Part shown: one piece after another, positions 2,604 through 13,944 of the stretch
How positions within the stretch are numbered: the first letter of the stretch is position 1
Layout of the letters: each line of letters opens with the position of its first letter
Origin: Fidelibacterota bacterium
Lineage (GTDB): Bacteria; Fidelibacterota; UBA2242
Direction: 5' to 3'
DNA length: 40,533 bases
NCBI GenBank assembly: GCA_011046365.1
Contig: DSAS01000149.1
Location: 1-40,533, forward strand
The notes under the pieces: generated by a model
The model's input: only the letters and a program-made list of their open reading frames with translations
Told to the model about the DNA's origin: nothing
Database searches by the model: none
Translations under genes and position numbers: made by a program

Positions 2604-4286
2604 CTATGTTGGAGTTTTGGAACAGACCTGCCGGAATACCCGCTGAAAATTGCCCCCTAAAATTTTCGCCAGGTCCGCTTTGGAATAGCCATGATTCAGC
2701 AACGCCAGACTCAAATCGGGAAACTTGGATACATCGCTCAAACCGGTCACAGTCCTTCCAATGCCATCGAAATCGGAACCCAGCGCTACATGATCAATCC
2801 CAACCAGATTGACGATATGTTCGATATGTTCGATCACCTGCTCGATACTGGCAGTCCGTGAGCCACTGATAAAATAAGGATAGAAAACGATCCCCACTAC
2901 CCCGCCTCCGGCGGCAATGGCTTCGATTTGCTCATCGTAAAGGTTACGGTAGTGGTCACAAATCGCCCGCGCCCCGGAATGGGTCGCCACAATAGGATTG
3001 ACAGTCGTCTCCAGAATATCACTCACCGTCTTGATCCCGACGTGTGACACATCAATGATAACTCCCAGGGAATCCAAAGTCCGAATAACTTGCCGACCAA
3101 AGTCATTCAGCCCGACACTACTGCTTCGGGCATCCTGAGCCGACACCGCCCAGTCGGTACTGTTGTTCCAGGTAATCGTCAGATAACGCATCCCGTCATC
3201 ATACAGCTGAATTAGTTTGTTGATATCATTCTCAATAACATGTCCACCCTCGACACACATCACCGCAGCGATCTTATTATCCAGGTTGATTGCCAGGGCT
3301 TCGTCAAGCGTGCGTGCCTGCTGGATAAATTCCGGATACAGATTTAATTCCCGGTTAAACAGACCCAGGGCAACCTGAGCTCCTTGATAAGGATTATGTT
3401 GATACGGTTTACCATCCCGAGGATCTATCCAGATCACAAAAAACTGGATATCCACCCCACCCTCGATCAGCCGGGGAATGTCGGTGTGATGACGAGTTTG
3501 CCGGGGCATCCAGTGATACGACGTATCTTCCAGCATCTGCTCCAGAACATCGTTATGCAGATCAATCAGCGTAAGACTGTTATGAATCGTCTCAAGGATT
3601 ACATCAAAATACTCGCCCCCTGCGATCTCCACCGCCACGGTATCCGCGACATAGGCAAATTTATCGTAAATAATCGTGAGAGGCACCGTGCCGGGCTTTG
3701 AAAGAGTGTTTTCACGACGGAAAGAGGCGCCGCTTATCGCTGTGAGCCCACCGCTACCGCCACCATCCAGCTGAACCATCTTTTTGGTGATTGCTTTGTC
3801 GTTGCAGCGGACCGTATAAAAATACACCCCCGCCGCACCGGTGCTCCGCCACTCAACCTGATAATTACCTGCCTCCAGGAACTGCTTTTTCGCATCCAGC
3901 ACCTGACCGAGAAGATTGTAAACAGCAATCTCCACCTCCCCGGCTGCGGCAATACCAAACTCAATTTTGGTTGTCGGGTTGAAGGGATTAGGAAAGTTCT
4001 GCTGAACCGAAAAGTCATGCGGCAAAGTATGCGGATCCAGTAATCCCGATGATGCGCTGGTATATTCCCATTGCCCGAGATAATTTGTCGTGACAGTATC
4101 GCGGATCGCATGTTCATTGGAAATGAGCACGACATTCACCTGAGATAAATTTTTGCCGGTGACAAAATCCTGCACATGGCCGCTGACGGTAAAAGCCACC
4201 AAATTCAGACCGGTCAACATTATCAGGAGGAAAATCGCTAACCCACCACTTAATCTGAATAACCGTTTGCAATTCTTAAAATACAT
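2604..4286 (-). CDS. Secreted M19 (renal-type) dipeptidase with a nested T9SS sorting domain
   Basis: This 560-residue protein has an N-terminal hydrophobic export signal (about 13-32). A carboxypeptidase-regulatory-like Ig domain begins at about 33 (VSGHVQDFVTGKNL). Residues 90-174 are a full T9SS/FlgD-like sorting domain (QNFPNPFNPTTKIEF ... VYNLLGQVL ... GVYFYTV ... KKMVQLD). The Ig-like domain then appears to resume at about 200-232 (VPLTIIYDKFAYVADTVAVE). The M19 metallopeptidase follows from 238. Zinc-site residues are all visible: DLHND (242-246), E346 in VEGG, H415, H436 in THSGAR and D505 in GSDFDG. It should hydrolyse dipeptides outside the cell or in the periplasm. Sorting domains are normally at the extreme C-terminus, so the internal placement is odd. 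It stands alone on the minus strand. Confidence 0.9.
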   Translation of the reverse strand: MYFKNCKRLFRLSGGLAIFLLIMLTGLNLVAFTVSGHVQDFVTGKNLSQVNVVLISNEHAIRDTVTTNYLGQWEYTSASSGLLDPHTLPHDFSVQQNFPNPFNPTTKIEFGIAAAGEVEIAVYNLLGQVLDAKKQFLEAGNYQVEWRSTGAAGVYFYTVRCNDKAITKKMVQLDGGGSGGLTAISGASFRRENTLSKPGTVPLTIIYDKFAYVADTVAVEIAGGEYFDVILETIHNSLTLIDLHNDVLEQMLEDTSYHWMPRQTRHHTDIPRLIEGGVDIQFFVIWIDPRDGKPYQHNPYQGAQVALGLFNRELNLYPEFIQQARTLDEALAINLDNKIAAVMCVEGGHVIENDINKLIQLYDDGMRYLTITWNNSTDWAVSAQDARSSSVGLNDFGRQVIRTLDSLGVIIDVSHVGIKTVSDILETTVNPIVATHSGARAICDHYRNLYDEQIEAIAAGGGVVGIVFYPYFISGSRTASIEQVIEHIEHIVNLVGIDHVALGSDFDGIGRTVTGLSDVSKFPDLSLALLNHGYSKADLAKILGGNFQRVFRQVCSKTPT

Positions 4287-4536
4287 TTTCGCCTGCCAAC
4301 TGTAAATTTCGGGGGAAATATCTCAAATTCGTCAATTTTCAGGTAAAAATAACACAATCAGACGAATGGAACAATGCCCGTCAGCGATTATTTTCCCGTT
4401 ATATTTGCCACTGATATTTAATTAATTAAGACTCTTAACTAACTTCAACAAGGCAAACGCAGATGACCGGTTAAATATTTAAACTGTATTTTTCTCTTGA
4501 TTAATTATAAAATCTTTTTATCTTAAAACATAAAGA
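4287..4536. other. AT-rich intergenic region upstream of the dapB leader
   Basis: This region has no convincing gene. It holds the divergent control regions of the dipeptidase (minus) and the lysine operon (plus). A perfect 13-bp palindrome TTAAGA-C-TCTTAA lies at 4426-4438. A TATAAA at 4506-4511 could serve as a -10 element for the dapB leader, but no good -35 is seen 16-18 nt upstream, so a promoter is only suggested. Confidence 0.4.
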
Positions 4537-4707
4537 ATGAATTCGGATCGCGGAGAAACGTTGAAAACCATTTTCGAAACAGAACACAGGATACACGACT
4601 CGGGCAGTGCCCCGCGGGTCTACCTCATTCTCTGTTCGAAAAAGCAGAGCGCCGCTCTTCCCGAAAAATCCCCGATAGGTTACACTAAGCGCTTCAAACA
4701 GGCTTAG
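4537..4707 (+). CDS. Possible leader peptide ORF (56 aa) upstream of dapB
   Basis: An ATG-started frame of 56 codons runs through the leader RNA and stops with TAG at 4705-4707, exactly at the end of the inner stem of the putative terminator hairpin. The peptide has six lysines, including CSKKQS (33-38) and YTKRFKQA (49-56). That would fit attenuation by lysine-tRNA availability. However, it is longer than classic leader peptides, has no dense run of lysine codons and no clear ribosome site. It may equally be a chance frame inside a structured RNA. Confidence 0.2.
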   Translation: MNSDRGETLKTIFETEHRIHDSGSAPRVYLILCSKKQSAALPEKSPIGYTKRFKQA

Positions 4708-4747
4708 TAATACCTATTTTTTCAAACCCAAATTACATAGGTATTAC
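4542..4747 (+). ncRNA. Structured 5' leader of dapB: candidate riboswitch or attenuator
   Basis: Several helices can be drawn by eye. P1 is TTCGG (4542-4546) with CCGAA (4661-4665). A long P2 pairs 4571-4583 with 4631-4643 (TTTTCGAAACAGA against TCTGTTCGAAAAA, one bulge) and is capped by GGGC-AGT-GCCC (4602-4612). P3 is AGAGC-GCC-GCTCT (4646-4658). Together they make a closed multi-branched domain. A terminator-like hairpin (4675-4722) follows, then an 11-bp perfect inverted repeat GTAATACCTAT / ATAGGTATTAC (4707-4717 / 4737-4747) ending just before the GGAGG ribosome site of dapB. The repeat and the terminator compete for the same ACCTAT. Lysine-riboswitch consensus elements are not recognisable. 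The ligand or signal is unknown; lysine or a diaminopimelate-pathway metabolite is the natural guess. Confidence 0.5.
4675..4722 (+). terminator. Putative regulatory intrinsic terminator in the dapB leader
   Basis: ATAGGT (4675-4680) pairs with ACCTAT (4712-4717) and ACTAAGC (4684-4690) with GCTTAGT (4702-4708). The two helices are separated by a symmetric 3-nt internal loop and capped by an 11-nt loop. TTTTTT (4717-4722) follows at once. It lies about 35 nt upstream of the dapB start, so it would cut off the whole lysine operon unless disrupted. The 3' strand can instead pair with ATAGGTATTAC at 4737-4747. Confidence 0.5.
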
Positions 4748-4757
4748 GGAGGAAAAG

Positions 4758-5513
4758 ATGAAAATCGCTATTCTGGGTTATGGTCGTATGGGACACGCTG
4801 TCGAGTCAGTGGCGGGAGGACTCGGTCACCGGATTTGTGCCATATTTGACCTGAATAATCCGCTTAAAACCGACTCGAACATCAATGACACCGATGTGAT
4901 TATCAGTTTCACCAATCCCGAGGCGGTTATTCACAACCTCGAACTGGCATCGGAAATAAATCTGCCAATCGTGGAGGGCACCACCGGCTGGTATCACCAG
5001 CTGGACCGGATGAAACAGATAGAGAATCTGACAATTCTGTATAGCCCGAACTTTTCCATCGGCGTGTATCTGTTCACAAAATTGGTGGAAAAAGCCGCCC
5101 GGCTTTTCGGTTCATTGCCGGAATACGACTGCTACATCCATGAATGGCACCACCGGTATAAAGCCGACAGCCCCAGCGGGACGGCGCTGAAACTGGCTGA
5201 GATTATGGTAAAAAATATCAAAACAAAAGAAGAAGTATTATCACAGACCTGCACCGGAAAAATCGCCGAAAACGCCCTGCAGGTCAGCTCCACGCGGGTT
5301 GGTCGGATTCCCGGTACTCACGAGGTCGGATTCGATTCGGAACATGATTCAATCATCCTGCGTCATCAAGCTCACGGTCGCACCGGTTTCGCCGTCGGCG
5401 CTCTGAAAGCAGCCGAATGGCTGATCGGCAAAAAGGGCATTTATACCATGGACGATTTTATGGAATCGCTAATTCAAACTCATTCAATGAAAGGACACAA
5501 TTATGAATATTGA
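4758..5513 (+). CDS. dapB: 4-hydroxy-tetrahydrodipicolinate reductase
   Basis: DapB reduces hydroxy-tetrahydrodipicolinate to tetrahydrodipicolinate with NAD(P)H in diaminopimelate/lysine synthesis. The 251-residue protein (E. coli about 273) starts with the dinucleotide-binding loop GYGRMG (7-12), has EGTTGW (73-78), and carries the family signature HEWHHRYKADSPSGTA (128-143) with the catalytic His and Lys. A strong GGAGG ribosome site precedes the ATG. It is the first gene of dapB-dapA-dapD and overlaps dapA by 11 nt, implying translational coupling. Expression is probably controlled by the structured leader upstream. Confidence 0.95.
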   Translation: MKIAILGYGRMGHAVESVAGGLGHRICAIFDLNNPLKTDSNINDTDVIISFTNPEAVIHNLELASEINLPIVEGTTGWYHQLDRMKQIENLTILYSPNFSIGVYLFTKLVEKAARLFGSLPEYDCYIHEWHHRYKADSPSGTALKLAEIMVKNIKTKEEVLSQTCTGKIAENALQVSSTRVGRIPGTHEVGFDSEHDSIILRHQAHGRTGFAVGALKAAEWLIGKKGIYTMDDFMESLIQTHSMKGHNYEY

Positions 5514-6408
5514 ACAATTTCGTGGAACTACCGTCGCACTCGTTACCCCATTTACTAAAAACGGGAAAATTGACGAAATCAAACTGCGAATGCTCGTTGA
5601 CCGGCAAATTGAGCTGGGTACAAACGTCATCCTGGCTTGCGGTACCACCGGTGAAAGCGCCACCCTCTCCCATGAAGAACATCATCATGTGATGGATATT
5701 GTTATCGAGCAGGTCAATGACCGTGTGCCCGTCATCTGCGGCGCTGGCAGCAATGCCACTCATGAAGCCATTTCACTGTCCAAACATGCGGAAGCGCAAG
5801 GTGCCGATGCGATTCTCTCTGTGGGACCCTATTATAACAAACCCACTCAGGAGGGATTTTACCGGCATTTTCGCACAATCGCCGAGTCAGTCAGCATTCC
5901 GCTGATCATCTACAATGTTCCTGGACGTACCGGCTCCAATATCGAAACAAAAACAGTCTTGCGGCTGGCGGAAATTGACAATATCATCGGTATCAAAGAA
6001 GCCAGCGGCAACATGTCTCAGATCATGAATATCCTGCGCAGTCGCCCCGAAGATTTTCTGGTTCTTTCGGGAGATGACGCCCTCAGCCTTGCCCTCATTG
6101 CGCTGGGCGGCGACGGTACAATCTCCGTCATAGCCAATGAAACGCCCGATCGGTTCAGTCAGATGATTTCAGCGGCTTTGAACGGTGACTGGAATCGGGC
6201 ACGCCAGGTGCATGAACAGCTACTGCCCTTAATGGAAGCAAATTTTATCGAAAGCAATCCAATCCCGGTCAAAACCGCCCTGGCAATGATGGGCATCATC
6301 GAAGATAATTTCCGACTGCCGTTGGTGACTATGGCCCCACATAATAGGGAAATTCTGCAGACAATTCTTAGCGATTTAAACCTGTTGAATTCTAACAATC
6401 ATTCATAA
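5503..6408 (+). CDS. dapA: 4-hydroxy-tetrahydrodipicolinate synthase
   Basis: DapA condenses pyruvate with aspartate semialdehyde, the committed step towards diaminopimelate and lysine. The 301-residue TIM-barrel protein has GTTGES (47-52), the catalytic tyrosine in YNVPGRTGSN (137-146), and the Schiff-base Lys165 in GIKEASGN. Its length matches the family (about 292). The ATG lies inside the end of dapB (11-nt overlap) with a GAAAGGA ribosome site inside dapB. DapA comes after DapB here although it acts before it. Confidence 0.95.
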   Translation: MNIEQFRGTTVALVTPFTKNGKIDEIKLRMLVDRQIELGTNVILACGTTGESATLSHEEHHHVMDIVIEQVNDRVPVICGAGSNATHEAISLSKHAEAQGADAILSVGPYYNKPTQEGFYRHFRTIAESVSIPLIIYNVPGRTGSNIETKTVLRLAEIDNIIGIKEASGNMSQIMNILRSRPEDFLVLSGDDALSLALIALGGDGTISVIANETPDRFSQMISAALNGDWNRARQVHEQLLPLMEANFIESNPIPVKTALAMMGIIEDNFRLPLVTMAPHNREILQTILSDLNLLNSNNHS

Positions 6409-6422
6409 TTATCGGAATTCTC

Positions 6423-7256
6423 ATGCATCAATTACAGCAATCTATCGAGACTCTCTTTGTCACTTCGCCGAAGCAGCCGCCCAGAGACTTCCGCCCAATT
6501 TTCAATGAATTTATTAATCAGTTGAATTCGGGGCAGATTCGGGCGACGGAATTTGACGGTGAAAAATGGCAGGTTAATCATTGGGTTAAAAAAGGTATCC
6601 TGCTGGGATTCCGCTACGGGCAACTAACCGACTACTCCGGTGACATCTTCCCTTTTTTTGATAAGGATACCTATCCGCTGCACTCTTTTGCCATTCACCA
6701 AAAAATCCGGATCGTCCCCGGCGGCAGCAGTGTCCGAAGCGGAAGTTTTCTGGCACCGGGCGTCGTCATCATGCCACCGGCTTATGTAAATGTCGGTGCC
6801 TATGTTGACGCCGATACAATGATCGACTCCCATACGCTCGTCGGTTCCTGCGCTCAGATCGGCAAACGGGTTCACCTGAGTGCCGGTGTCCAGATCGGCG
6901 GCGTCCTGGAACCCATCGGTGCCAGACCGGTTATTATTGAAGATGATGTGCTGGTCGGCGGCAATTGCGGCGTCTTTGAAGGTGTTCTGGTCAGGCATGG
7001 TGCCGTATTGGCGGCGGGAACGATTCTCACCGCTTCGCTACCGGTTTACGATCTGATTCGTCAGGAACTATTAAAAGGGAATAAAGAGCAGCCGCTGGTA
7101 ATCCCGGAAAACGCGGTGGTCATTCCGGGCAGTCGTCCGTTGGAAAAGTCCGATTTCGCCCGCCGGCACGGCTTACACGGATATTGCGCCATCATCACTA
7201 AATACCGCGATTCCGGCACTGAAACCGCAACTGCGCTGGAAAAAAGTCTCCGCTAA
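6423..7256 (+). CDS. dapD: Tetrahydrodipicolinate N-succinyltransferase
   Basis: DapD transfers succinyl from succinyl-CoA to tetrahydrodipicolinate, committing the cell to the succinylase branch of diaminopimelate synthesis. The 277-residue protein (E. coli 274) has a helical N-terminal domain and then hexapeptide repeats of a left-handed beta helix from about residue 85 (VRSGSFLAPGVVIMPPAYVN, GAYVDADTMIDSHTLVGSCA). It follows dapA by 14 nt and ends the compact dapBAD unit. The later genes dapC, dapE, dapF and lysA are not in the window. A 7-bp hairpin CAACCAC-AAC-GTGGTTG (7301-7317) lies downstream without a T-run. Confidence 0.95.
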   Translation: MHQLQQSIETLFVTSPKQPPRDFRPIFNEFINQLNSGQIRATEFDGEKWQVNHWVKKGILLGFRYGQLTDYSGDIFPFFDKDTYPLHSFAIHQKIRIVPGGSSVRSGSFLAPGVVIMPPAYVNVGAYVDADTMIDSHTLVGSCAQIGKRVHLSAGVQIGGVLEPIGARPVIIEDDVLVGGNCGVFEGVLVRHGAVLAAGTILTASLPVYDLIRQELLKGNKEQPLVIPENAVVIPGSRPLEKSDFARRHGLHGYCAIITKYRDSGTETATALEKSLR

Positions 7257-7453
7257 TTCCCTGCTTGACCGCAGAATCTGTCAGTTTCCTTTTATTATAG
7301 CAACCACAACGTGGTTGAACTTATCCCCGCCTCTCCTGGCATCTCTGCACTAAAAAATCCCATCAAAATTTTCATTGTTTCCGGTTAAAATTCCTTTCCT
7401 TTCAAAGTAATTTCTCTTAACTTTCTAAAGTTTTCAACCAACACCGAGGGATC

Positions 7454-8758
7454 ATGCGCATCGGAATACGACGTGAAGATAAAAATGAATACGAAGCCCG
7501 GGTGCCTTTAATACCGGAACATGTTCGCCAGATTTCGGAAAAACACAAGGTGGAAATTTACATCCAACCGTCAGCGATCCGGACATTTTCCGATCATGAG
7601 TACCGGTCAGCCGGCGCGGTGGTAACCGAGAACCTTTCCGCCTGCGATCTGATCCTGGCGGTGAAAGAGATTCCCATCAGTTTTTTCCTTCCCAAGAAAA
7701 AATATCTCTTCTTTTCCCATACCGTTAAAGGGCAGCCTTACAATATGCCGATGCTGAAACGGATGGTTGAGCTGCAGACCACCCTGATTGATTATGAAAA
7801 AATCGTTGATGAAAACCGCAGACGACTGGTCTTTTTCGGGCGCTTCGCCGGACTTGCCGGAATGATTGATTCCTTCTGGGCACTGGGGAAACGCCTGCAG
7901 GACGATGGCACTACGACTCTGCTTGCCGATTTCAAACCGGCACTCGAATACGGCGATCTGGCAACTGTTAAAAAAGCCTACCGGAAACAGGCACAGCTGT
8001 TCGCCCGGGAAGGAATTCCCCAAAATCTAACGCCCCTGATTGTAGGTTTCGCCGGTTATGGCAATGTCTCCAAGGGTGCTCAGGAAATTTTCGATATCCT
8101 GCCCCATATTGAAATTCAGCCCGCAAAATTAACCGACTTTTATCAAAAGGGTGTCTTTTCCAATAAACACCTTTACAAAGTTGTTTTTAAAGAAGAAGAC
8201 CTGGTTGAGCCGCGGGATTCGTCAGGTCGGTTTTTACTACAGGAATACTATCAGCATCCCGAACGGTATCAATCGAAATTTGATAGGTATCTGCCCTATC
8301 TGTCAATGCTGATCAATGCCATTTATTGGGACAGCCGCTATCCCCGGCTCGTCACGAAGCGCTATTTAAGAGATAATTACTCCTGGCTGCCGCTGAAGGT
8401 TATCGGCGACATCACCTGTGACGTCGGCGGTTCCGTCGAATGCAACCTCACCGTAACCGATTCCGGTAATCCCGTCTATGTCTATAATCCCGATACCGGG
8501 CGGATTGATTACGGCATCAGGGGTTATGGTCCGGTCGTACTGGCGGTTGACAATCTGCCCTGTGAACTGCCAAAAGAGTCGTCAACGGTATTCAGCACAG
8601 TACTAAAAAAATTTATCCCGCAACTCCTGACTACCGATTTTTCCCGGGATTTTCAGAATCTGAATTTACCCCCGGAATTGAAGCGGGCAACGATTTTATA
8701 TAATGGTCAGTTCACGCCGGATTATCGTTATATGCATAACTTTATCAAGGATTTATAA
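7454..8758 (+). CDS. Lysine-ketoglutarate reductase (saccharopine-forming; LKR half of AASS)
   Basis: The 434-residue protein matches the LKR half of the animal/plant bifunctional enzyme aminoadipic semialdehyde synthase. It starts with the alanine-dehydrogenase/transhydrogenase-like N domain (GIRREDKNEYEARVPLIPEH, residues 3-22), followed by FSHTVKGQPYNMPML and, near the C-terminus, ITCDVGGSVECNLTVTDSGN. LKR condenses lysine with 2-oxoglutarate and NADPH to give saccharopine. The next gene is the matching dehydrogenase half, so this is a split version of the eukaryotic fusion. It lies 197 nt after dapD and may have its own promoter. Direction (lysine breakdown) is inferred from the family; the reverse reaction cannot be excluded. 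Confidence 0.9.
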   Translation: MRIGIRREDKNEYEARVPLIPEHVRQISEKHKVEIYIQPSAIRTFSDHEYRSAGAVVTENLSACDLILAVKEIPISFFLPKKKYLFFSHTVKGQPYNMPMLKRMVELQTTLIDYEKIVDENRRRLVFFGRFAGLAGMIDSFWALGKRLQDDGTTTLLADFKPALEYGDLATVKKAYRKQAQLFAREGIPQNLTPLIVGFAGYGNVSKGAQEIFDILPHIEIQPAKLTDFYQKGVFSNKHLYKVVFKEEDLVEPRDSSGRFLLQEYYQHPERYQSKFDRYLPYLSMLINAIYWDSRYPRLVTKRYLRDNYSWLPLKVIGDITCDVGGSVECNLTVTDSGNPVYVYNPDTGRIDYGIRGYGPVVLAVDNLPCELPKESSTVFSTVLKKFIPQLLTTDFSRDFQNLNLPPELKRATILYNGQFTPDYRYMHNFIKDL

Positions 8759-8806
8759 AACAGCGATAATCGTAGCAAATTCCATCTTTACTCAGGGAGA
8801 ATAGTA

Positions 8807-10126
8807 ATGAAAAATGTCTTGGTTCTTGGAGCGGGATTGGTATCACGTCCATTGGTTCGATATCTGCTGAACGTACCGGATTTTAAGGTGACCGTCGCCA
8901 GTCGAACCGTTAGCAAAGCCGTCAACTTAATCGCCGATCATCCGCAGGGTGAAGCCGTTGAACTGAATGTCCAAAACGACGCCCAGTTGGAACAGTTAAT
9001 TGAACACTCCGACCTGGCTATCAGCCTGCTGCCCTATACTTACCATGTAAAGGTCGCCGGCTACTGCATCAAACACAACAAGCAGATGGTCACCACCTCC
9101 TACATCAGCGACACCATGAAAGCGCTCGACCGACCGGTCCGGCAGGCTGGCATTCTGATTCTGAATGAAATCGGCGTAGACCCCGGAATTGACCATATGT
9201 CCGCCATGCGCATTATTCATAAAGTGGAAAACAGCGGTGGCAAGATTGTCAGTTTTCGCTCCTATTGTGGTGGTTTGCCGGCACCGGAAGCCAACGATAA
9301 CCCTTTCGGCTATAAATTCAGCTGGAGCCCCCGCGGGGTTTTAATGGCTGGTCGCAACGATGCCAAATATCTGAAAGACGGTAAAATCATCGAAATCGAA
9401 GGTAAAAACCTGTTCCGCCATCACTGGCTGCTGAATATTGAGGGACAACCGCAATTCGAGACCTACCCCAACCGCAATTCCCTGCCCTATATCGAGACCT
9501 ACGGCTTAAAGGATGTCCGCACCATGTTTCGCGGCACAATCCGGAATGTGGGCTGGTGCGAAACCATGCTCTGCATTGCCCGCCTGGGCGTTCTCGACGA
9601 GACCGAGCGTGACGACCTGAAAGGTATGAGTTATGACGACCTGACCCGCCGCTTAGTGAATGCCCCGGCTGGCATGAGCACCCGGAAAGCTACTCAGGCA
9701 TTCCTGGGCGACGACGCCAGCGCAGAAGTCCTCGATCGTTTGGAATGGCTGGGACTCTTCAGCAATGACCCTCTACCGGATGAGCCCACCTATCTCGATA
9801 TCATGACCCATCGCTTTTTGGAAAAAATGCCCTACAAAACGGGCGAACGGGATATGATTGTACTCTATCACGACTTCCTGGCGGAATGGCCGGATCGGCA
9901 GAGACGCATTACCTCTACGCTGGTGGATTTCGGCATTCCCAACGGCGATTCCTCAATGGCTCGTACCGTCAGCCTACCGGCTGCCATCGCCACCCGCCTG
10001 ATCCTTCAGGGAAAAATCAGACTGAGCGGCGTGCATGCGCCGGTTTTGCCCGAGATATATAATCCGGTCCTGGATGAGTTGGAGACCATGAATATCGCCT
10101 GTAAAGAGCAGGAATACCCGGTCTAA
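8807..10126 (+). CDS. Saccharopine dehydrogenase (glutamate-forming; SDH half of AASS)
   Basis: The 439-residue protein has an N-terminal Rossmann fold (VLVLGAGLVSRPLVRYL, 4-20) and sequences typical of the SDH half of aminoadipic semialdehyde synthase: TSYISDTMK, LNEIGVDPGIDHMSAM and YCGGLPAPEANDNPFGYKFS. It oxidises saccharopine to glutamate and aminoadipate semialdehyde with NAD. An AGGGAG ribosome site precedes the ATG, 48 nt after the LKR gene, so the two are surely cotranscribed. The aldehyde dehydrogenase needed for the next catabolic step is not in view. The gene converges with putP, with only 6 nt between the two ends. Confidence 0.93.
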   Translation: MKNVLVLGAGLVSRPLVRYLLNVPDFKVTVASRTVSKAVNLIADHPQGEAVELNVQNDAQLEQLIEHSDLAISLLPYTYHVKVAGYCIKHNKQMVTTSYISDTMKALDRPVRQAGILILNEIGVDPGIDHMSAMRIIHKVENSGGKIVSFRSYCGGLPAPEANDNPFGYKFSWSPRGVLMAGRNDAKYLKDGKIIEIEGKNLFRHHWLLNIEGQPQFETYPNRNSLPYIETYGLKDVRTMFRGTIRNVGWCETMLCIARLGVLDETERDDLKGMSYDDLTRRLVNAPAGMSTRKATQAFLGDDASAEVLDRLEWLGLFSNDPLPDEPTYLDIMTHRFLEKMPYKTGERDMIVLYHDFLAEWPDRQRRITSTLVDFGIPNGDSSMARTVSLPAAIATRLILQGKIRLSGVHAPVLPEIYNPVLDELETMNIACKEQEYPV

Positions 10127-11621: not shown

Positions 11622-11650
11622 TTGCATTAATTTTCAAACCATCGTATATT
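11622..11650 (+). promoter_or_regulatory. Sigma70-type promoter for the B12 uptake operon
   Basis: TTGCAT (11622-11627) and TATATT (11645-11650) are separated by exactly 17 nt, 20 nt upstream of the first paired base of the cobalamin riboswitch. This would put the transcription start at about 11657, just before the aptamer. Confidence 0.65.
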
Positions 11651-11669
11651 CAATCCGTTATTTTAGATA

Positions 11670-11845
11670 TGGATTATGACAGGGAAGCTCGTGTAAATCG
11701 AGCACAGCCCCGCTACTGTAACCGAGGACGCGCCTACGTATACCACGGCAATTGCTGGAAGGTGTAGACCCGCGGACGATCCGGGAGTCAGGATACCTGT
11801 ATAGTCCATTCTAATCCGCTTGCGCGGGCAAATCAGGGATTAGAA
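11670..11845 (+). promoter_or_regulatory. Cobalamin riboswitch with translational expression platform
   Basis: The conserved core of the B12 riboswitch is present in order: AGGGAA (11681), the B12 box CAGCCCCGCTACTGTAACCG (11704-11723), CCACGG (11743), GGAAGG (11757-11762) and AGTCAGGATACCTGT (11786-11800), with closing P1 strands at about 11670-11684 and 11795-11808. The expression platform is a perfect 9-bp stem, TTCTAATCC (11809-11817) with GGATTAGAA (11837-11845). It ends 2 nt before the receptor ATG and covers part of its AGGG ribosome site. TAATCC could alternatively pair with GGATTA at 11671-11676. This fits translation shut-off of B12 uptake when cobalamin is plentiful. Confidence 0.93.
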
Positions 11846-11847
11846 CC

Positions 11848-13944
11848 ATGACCTTTTTACCCCTTCACTCCCCACATTTCCCAAATATAAAAATCATTAT
11901 CATCGGGTTCATTCTGTCCGCTTTCCGGTTGACAGCCAGTCCGCCGACCGTCGGACAGGTTATTGCTCCTGACGATACTCCTATTCCTTACGTGACCATG
12001 TATAACAAATCCAGCGACACCTGGCTGGTTAGCGATGAAAATGGGAAAATATTTTTTACCAACCGACATGCCGCCGGTGACACCCTCGAATTCCGGCGGA
12101 TCGGTTTTCAGAATATCACAGTGATAATGCCCGACAGTGTCGGCATTTTTCAAATCAAGCTCTCCTACTCTCCGGTGGCAATCGGCGCCGTAGAAATCGC
12201 CGGTCGAGTACAGCCGCAAAACCCGGGCGGTTCCTTCACCCGGATTGCCGTCACCGGAGAACTGGGAATTATCGAATCCGGGCAGGTTTTATCCTCTATC
12301 CCCGGTACCTATATCCGTTCCTACGGCGGTCCGGCGGGAATCACTACGCTCAGCCTGGACGGTGCCCCATCCTCGCATACCAATATTTTCTTTTCCGGTT
12401 TTGATTTGACCAGCGCTCAGAACGGACAGGTAGATATCTCCCAGTTTCCCTCATCTTTAATCGGGGCGATTGAATATTCACCCAACCTGACCGAATCCAG
12501 CCCCGAAATCGGTAACGCCGAAGGCAGTATCCAGATTCAACCACCGGAGTCTGAAACGGGATTCAGTACCAGTATCGGGTCTTTTGGTCACTGCTCCCTT
12601 ACCGGCAGAATCGCACGCCAGACGAAACGAAGTCGAATCTATTTCTCCCTGGGAAAACGCCACGATGACGCCGATTACCGGGCAATCAATCCGATCAGCG
12701 GTACCTCCCTAACACGTGATAACAACACATTCGAGCAAAAGTATCTCACCGCCACCCTGACCACGGTTATGTCTACCAACCTGTTTTGGAAAACCATGCT
12801 CATGAGCTCGCACCAGCAGCGCGGAGTCGCCGGATTGATCTGGTCGCCGACGCCCAACGCTACGCGGAGTGACAAAACCTCGATGATCGGTTCAAAACTG
12901 GGTTGGGTCAACCGGTTCGGGCACGGCTATTTTCAATTACTGATGAAACAATCAACGGAGCGCTACGTCAATCCTCAGAATAATATCAACGCCAATCATG
13001 CACTGTCCACTTATCACCTACTCATCAAACAGACCGGAACAATGGGACAGCTCATTCGGTGGTACCTCTATTCAGACGTCAAATACGATTACCTCCGCAG
13101 CACGAATACAGATATACATGATCGCTTGAGCAAAAAGACCATGGCGGCTGTGACGTGCTTACCCTTTGCGAAAATTTCCTTCAGTCCGACAATCATGCAT
13201 AACTTCTCGCCCAATCTCTTTTCCACAATTGATCACGATCTGCAAATACGCTGGCGTTTCGCGGACAACAAGGGGCTCCTCTATGCAAATACAGGAAAAT
13301 TTTACCGCTATCCGACTTTCAACGATCTTTACTGGAAACCGGGGGGCAATCCTGACTTGCAACCCGAACATACCGCAAAAATCGCCGGCGGTTTTGAATT
13401 GAACGAGTTTGCCGGCTTTTCGCTCAAAACCAATATTTATTACAAAGAGAGTAAAAATCTCATTCTGTGGACGCCGATTCAATCCTACTGGCAACCGAAA
13501 AATATCGAAAAGGCTGTCCGGAAAGGGTATAAAATTGGGCTTCAGTGGCAAAGCCGGGGCATCCCTGTTTCGATCAACGCCCTGTACAATCATGTCGTCT
13601 CCCGCAATCTGACGCCGGGTGATTATTATCAAAAACCGCTGCGCTATGCACCCAGGGAAACGAGTTCTCTGACTTTCGACTGGCGCCCGGATAAATTTTA
13701 TATCGCTCTGCAAATGCAGCACGTCAGCCGCCGTATCGCCATGTTCAGCTGGCCGGAAGACCAGACTCTCAAACCCTACACTGTCTACTCTCTCAATCTG
13801 TCGTACAGCCTGGAAAACCGGCTGGGCACCTTCATCATCGTCGGTGCGATTAATAACCTCGGCGATAGTGCTTATGAAACTCTGCTCGGTTACCCCGAAC
13901 CACCGCGCTCATTTCGTCTCACCTTGAATTATAAAATCAATTAA
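11848..13944 (+). CDS. TonB-dependent outer-membrane receptor, probable cobalamin transporter (BtuB-like)
   Basis: The 698-residue protein has an N-terminal signal (hydrophobic IKIIIIGFILSAFRLTAS, about 15-32). A carboxypeptidase-regulatory-like domain follows (about 34-115, GQVIAPDDTPIPYVTMYNK), then a TonB plug (about 130-210, SIPGTYIRSYGGPAGITTLS) and a C-terminal beta barrel ending NYKIN. Such receptors import bulky ligands across the outer membrane using TonB energy. The substrate is inferred from the cobalamin riboswitch directly upstream and the BtuG-like protein downstream. The extra N-terminal domain is the Bacteroidota-style arrangement rather than that of E. coli BtuB. No B12 ABC transporter genes are in the window. 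Confidence 0.9.
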   Translation: MTFLPLHSPHFPNIKIIIIGFILSAFRLTASPPTVGQVIAPDDTPIPYVTMYNKSSDTWLVSDENGKIFFTNRHAAGDTLEFRRIGFQNITVIMPDSVGIFQIKLSYSPVAIGAVEIAGRVQPQNPGGSFTRIAVTGELGIIESGQVLSSIPGTYIRSYGGPAGITTLSLDGAPSSHTNIFFSGFDLTSAQNGQVDISQFPSSLIGAIEYSPNLTESSPEIGNAEGSIQIQPPESETGFSTSIGSFGHCSLTGRIARQTKRSRIYFSLGKRHDDADYRAINPISGTSLTRDNNTFEQKYLTATLTTVMSTNLFWKTMLMSSHQQRGVAGLIWSPTPNATRSDKTSMIGSKLGWVNRFGHGYFQLLMKQSTERYVNPQNNINANHALSTYHLLIKQTGTMGQLIRWYLYSDVKYDYLRSTNTDIHDRLSKKTMAAVTCLPFAKISFSPTIMHNFSPNLFSTIDHDLQIRWRFADNKGLLYANTGKFYRYPTFNDLYWKPGGNPDLQPEHTAKIAGGFELNEFAGFSLKTNIYYKESKNLILWTPIQSYWQPKNIEKAVRKGYKIGLQWQSRGIPVSINALYNHVVSRNLTPGDYYQKPLRYAPRETSSLTFDWRPDKFYIALQMQHVSRRIAMFSWPEDQTLKPYTVYSLNLSYSLENRLGTFIIVGAINNLGDSAYETLLGYPEPPRSFRLTLNYKIN

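Follow-up and report, generated by a model that had tools for sequence, protein, structure and literature searches.

The 221 nucleotides in front of the lysine-biosynthesis genes dapB, dapA and dapD (positions 4537-4757) contain a convincing transcription stop signal, which is probably a simple on/off brake that is either read by a ribosome or leaked through. Our tentative reading is that the region is a terminator-based attenuator of dapB-dapA-dapD, with read-through most likely controlled by translation of a short leader open reading frame, ORF56, that ends inside the terminator hairpin. A new riboswitch class, as put forward in the original prediction, is not supported by the folding energies, family searches and genome comparisons described below.

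Genomic context of the leader

The host genome is a metagenome-assembled genome of 2.68 Mb from a marine bacterium, and the window that we analysed is a 40,533-nucleotide stretch of it. The leader occupies the dapB-proximal end of a divergent intergenic region (4287-4757), with an M19 dipeptidase gene upstream on the other strand and dapB downstream. That the element precedes a lysine operon, as originally stated, is confirmed by NCBIfam and Pfam identification of dapB, dapA and dapD. The features of the locus are as follows.

2604-4286, strand opposite to dapB: M19 dipeptidase gene
4487-4536, + strand: AT-rich stretch (12% GC), likely promoter or start region of the leader transcript
4748-4752, + strand: GGAGG, ribosome-binding site of dapB, read from the sequence
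4758-5513, + strand: dapB, 4-hydroxy-tetrahydrodipicolinate reductase (TIGR00036, 151.5 bits, above cut-off; Pfam DapB_N/DapB_C)
5503-6408, + strand: dapA (TIGR00674, 369.7 bits)
6423-7256, + strand: dapD-like tetrahydrodipicolinate N-succinyltransferase gene (NF008808, 297.6 bits)
7454-8758, 3' of the dapD-like gene: LYS1-like protein with alanine-dehydrogenase/PNT domains
8807-10126, 3' of the LYS1-like gene: saccharopine-dehydrogenase-like protein

GC content is 12% in 4487-4526 and rises to about 50% in the block 4540-4670, and no sigma-70 consensus was found on the + strand. We take 4537-4757 to be the 5' leader of a dapB-dapA-dapD transcript whose promoter would lie in the AT-rich stretch.

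Two other aspects of the neighborhood deserve mention. Directly behind dapB-dapA-dapD, at 7454-10126, are the LYS1-like and LYS9-like genes, which resemble the two saccharopine-pathway dehydrogenases, and in a relative (G007) the LYS1-like gene adjoins the M19 dipeptidase gene with no dapBAD in between; together with dapBAD these genes possibly constitute a mixed cluster for lysine synthesis and degradation. Further downstream, a cobalamin riboswitch (RF00174, 87.3 bits) at 11631-11818 ends 29 nt 5' of a 698-aa ORF (11848-13944) that, by reading, looks like a TonB-dependent outer-membrane receptor.

A terminator hairpin in front of dapB

The elements of the leader itself, including those of the fold discussed further below, are these.

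4537-4707, + strand: ORF56, 56 codons, from ATG at 4537 to TAG at 4705-4707; a possible leader peptide, coding uncertain
4542-4665, + strand: claimed multi-branched fold P1/P2/P3; the pairings exist on paper, the whole domain lies within chance
4571-4643, + strand: P2 rod hairpin (z -3.18), the sole part of the fold with low energy relative to shuffles, its boundaries chosen post hoc
4672-4722, + strand: intrinsic-terminator-shaped hairpin followed by TTTTTT (-16.9 kcal/mol, z -5.14)
4707-4747, no strand assigned: perfect 11-bp inverted repeat with arms 4707-4717 and 4737-4747 and a 19-nt loop (0 of 500 shuffles)

The strongest signal is the hairpin at 4675-4717 with its six T residues at 4717-4722, which was described in the original prediction and emerges here as a stable hairpin with a U-run right after it, the form of an intrinsic terminator; none of 200 shuffles of 4672-4722 was as stable. 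The T-run is separated from dapB by 35 nt, with the GGAGG at 4748 in between, and transcripts begun in the AT-rich stretch must therefore cross the terminator.

The 11-bp inverted repeat beside the dapB GGAGG also proved to be exact (GTAATACCTAT/ATAGGTATTAC), with its 3' end at 4747 directly abutting GGAGG at 4748-4752. Dinucleotide shuffles of the 221 nt gave a perfect inverted repeat of at least 11 bp in none of 500 cases, and one of at least 10 bp in 5 of 500. This repeat had been proposed to take part in a terminator switch, in which segments A (4675-4680), B (4712-4717) and C (4737-4742) pair in two mutually exclusive ways. The segments do share letters as described, but the switch does not follow from this: the A:B pairing is complete once the polymerase has reached the T-run, when segment C, 3' of the T-run, is still untranscribed, and B:C pairing cannot decide termination because C is made after the terminator. 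In thermodynamic, not kinetic, prediction A:B is also the more stable, at -15.0 kcal/mol (4675-4717) versus -9.7 for B:C (4707-4747). Nor does thermodynamic prediction yield any upstream anti-terminator pairing, including one overlapping the 5' arm of the terminator; when the transcript is truncated ahead of the 3' arm, no upstream sequence pairs strongly with segment A, whose largest predicted pairings are local or below 0.15 with 4536-4548. At most, B:C pairing would come into play once transcription has passed the terminator, at the base of the dapB ribosome-binding site.

A leader open reading frame that ends in the terminator

ORF56, overlooked previously, spans P1, P2 and P3, and its stop codon lies within the 3' side of the terminator stem. 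Its codon score of about 0.05-0.06 bits per codon exceeds that of both other forward frames, and only 0.25% of 2000 shuffles of its own sequence score as high; measured against the window's real genes, the same score stands at the 3rd percentile, and 31 of the 167 non-coding shadow ORFs reach it. The ATG at 4537 is preceded immediately by AAAGA, and there is no good ribosome-binding site in front of it. Six lysine codons are dispersed through the reading frame. Searches of Pfam (with E values as high as 10), NCBIfam and the PDB gave no match to the product, and a protein search of 244 genomes of the phylum returned no convincing homologue, the best match elsewhere (E 0.011) being antisense to a long unrelated ORF.

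If ORF56 is translated, the arrangement suggests how the operon might be controlled. The terminator would set expression of the operon by the amount of read-through. A ribosome following close behind RNA polymerase, on reaching the ORF56 stop codon, would cover the hairpin and allow transcription into dapB, and with a lagging or absent ribosome the hairpin would form and transcription would stop; in that case the folds further upstream would be no more than the usual structure of an mRNA. Taken loosely, the term attenuator very likely applies to this terminator-shaped element, and translation of a leader ORF is the control that needs the fewest assumptions. There is published precedent for such an effect in Escherichia coli, where termination fell from about 90% to under 10% when a stop codon lay 5 bp upstream of a terminator, an effect lost without translation (PMC4824070). 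The stability of the terminator (z -5.1), the position of the ORF56 stop within the hairpin and a codon score above that of shuffles all argue for this reading, whereas the ambiguous coding score, the lack of a good ribosome-binding site and the want of an ORF56 homologue weigh against it.

A possible, if somewhat doubtful, alternative is that the terminator is plain and unregulated or leaky, making 4537-4722 a small transcription unit in its own right, either a small gene or a small RNA; dapB would then receive whatever transcription passes the terminator, and nothing would be sensed. In favor of this, the terminator is the single strong signal, the stretch of about 185 nt between the AT-rich start and the T-run is self-contained, and no upstream anti-terminator is predicted. 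However, pure leakage would be unusual for a biosynthetic operon, and no homologue of the unit was recovered by DNA or covariance-model searches. As a small RNA it is not 6S RNA (RF00013), a candidate that we rejected given that the genome's only match lies elsewhere (G000:C2:41047-41215, 75 bits).

The proposed riboswitch fold

The original prediction envisaged a closed multi-branched fold serving as a riboswitch or another attenuator responsive to lysine or to an intermediate of its pathway. All three helices are readable in the sequence: P1 (TTCGG/CCGAA, 4542-4546/4661-4665) and P3 (AGAGC-GCC-GCTCT, 4646-4658) are exact at 5 bp each, and P2 (4571-4583/4631-4643) comprises 12 bp with one bulged A. 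The minimum-energy fold of 4537-4757 recovers P1, P2 and P3 together with the terminator, but the closed domain as a whole (4540-4668, -34.8 kcal/mol) is not beyond chance, with z -1.07, p 0.16 and 16% of shuffles equally stable. This value is ordinary, since 156 background stretches of 129 nt across the window average z -0.30 with a standard deviation of 1.0. The full 221 nt reaches z -2.5 against shuffles, mainly because of the terminator (4672-4722) and the P2 rod. Read on the minus strand, P3 (4646-4658) and the GCTTTTTCGA that follows it make up a terminator-like site; one such site was found versus 0.8 in shuffles, and it is probably due to chance.

No Rfam family matched the + strand of 4537-4757 at the gathering cut-off or at E up to 10, in agreement with the earlier view that the lysine riboswitch core (RF00168) is not recognisable here; the only + strand match at E up to 10 is to G-CSF_SLDE at 4419-4497 (E 3.2), far under the cut-off and outside the leader. 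Among 244 genomes of the phylum, none gave a lysine-riboswitch match over the gathering score, which is in line with a published survey in which these elements are rare outside Firmicutes and Gammaproteobacteria (PMC5584792).

Relatives of the leader were sought in several ways. Searching 245 Neomarinimicrobiota genomes by blastn yielded nothing convincing except the window itself, the best matches elsewhere being short fragments, most of them from the AT-rich part with the terminator. A covariance model of 4540-4668, built from a single sequence, run with stricter filters and weak by construction, found no relative in 244 genomes. The phage collection gave no match. The only near relative with the same operon is a member of the genus (G001) with 75% DNA identity over window positions 5430-10114; of its contigs, the one with the operon breaks off within dapB and the one with the M19 gene starts inside that gene, placing the leader in an assembly gap. 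The nearest complete dapB (G013) has 46% protein identity, and its upstream stretch is AT-rich, looks unrelated by reading and has no comparable terminator. Elsewhere in the phylum many dapB genes directly adjoin another gene (lysC- or dapA-like by reading) and are leaderless.

A new riboswitch or protein-bound attenuator for lysine or a pathway intermediate is unlikely: the position before dapB, the long leader, the greater stability of the P2 rod than of its shuffles (z -3.2) and the lack of lysine riboswitches in the 244 phylum genomes, which leaves room for other regulation, are set against an aptamer domain of unexceptional stability, the empty Rfam search, the dissimilar G013 leader and the lack of any relative or predicted ligand-controlled anti-terminator. 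The claim of a new class is not sustained on these grounds. Its narrower form, a lineage-restricted and unclassified riboswitch in Neomarinimicrobiota that senses lysine or an intermediate of the DAP pathway, we consider distinctly unlikely.

Less likely readings: gene decay or a DNA operator

That a former gene decayed to leave the GC-richer block 4540-4670 is also quite improbable. The jump in GC content from 12% to about 50% is consistent with such an origin, and there is a parallel in another genus relative (G003), in which only a C-terminal piece of dapA is left (L040 1450-1653, about 54-61% identity to dapA of the window), followed by the apparent start of a dapD-like gene; within the genus, then, the DAP genes have undergone decay. 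ORF56 also includes 20 residues (IHDS..AP.VY..L) with 50% identity to a GPI-type isomerase. However, that match is weak (E 0.010 in a small locus set), Pfam is empty at E up to 10 and no GPI gene was found in the genome, and we dropped a GPI-like origin of ORF56; a terminator at the end of the block would moreover be a coincidence.

Least probable is a role for the inverted repeat as the operator at which some regulator binds DNA, with the RNA folds incidental. A perfect 11-bp repeat whose arms lie 30 bp apart is more than chance would give, but the genome contains just three copies of the 11-mer arm, as many as of its reversed control, so that no regulon is seen, and the repeat is located downstream of the likely promoter.

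Comparison with known systems

If the leader is a translation-coupled attenuator, it adds one more example of an old mechanism, from a phylum that has been little studied; a real aptamer would make it a new amino-acid-pathway riboswitch, and nothing here requires one. The leader also illustrates how a fold can be mistaken for a riboswitch when it is drawn across an open reading frame whose end carries a terminator.

The leader resembles the lysine riboswitch (L box, RF00168) in its position before dap genes and in having a terminator near the operon start, but it gives no match to that family at E up to 10, nor was one found among the 244 phylum genomes. With the leader-peptide attenuators of the trp, his and thr type it shares a short ORF before a terminator, in this instance one with six lysine codons; in contrast to those systems, the lysine codons are spread out and the ORF56 leader lacks a predicted anti-terminator pairing to the 5' arm of the terminator. 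Ribosomes stalled at codons 10 or 35-36 of ORF56 would presumably promote termination on starvation, which is the wrong direction. A trp-type attenuator was rejected, there being no cognate-codon cluster and no competing anti-terminator.

The attenuator reading has its closest known precedent in pyrL/pyrBI of Escherichia coli, in which the ribosome blocks the pyrBI terminator (PMC5021804). The pathway here is that of lysine rather than pyrimidines, there is no evidence of a nucleotide-sensing pause site, and translation of ORF56 is putative; the common design is a leader ORF that extends into an intrinsic terminator ahead of biosynthetic genes in an operon, such that a translating ribosome would mask the hairpin.
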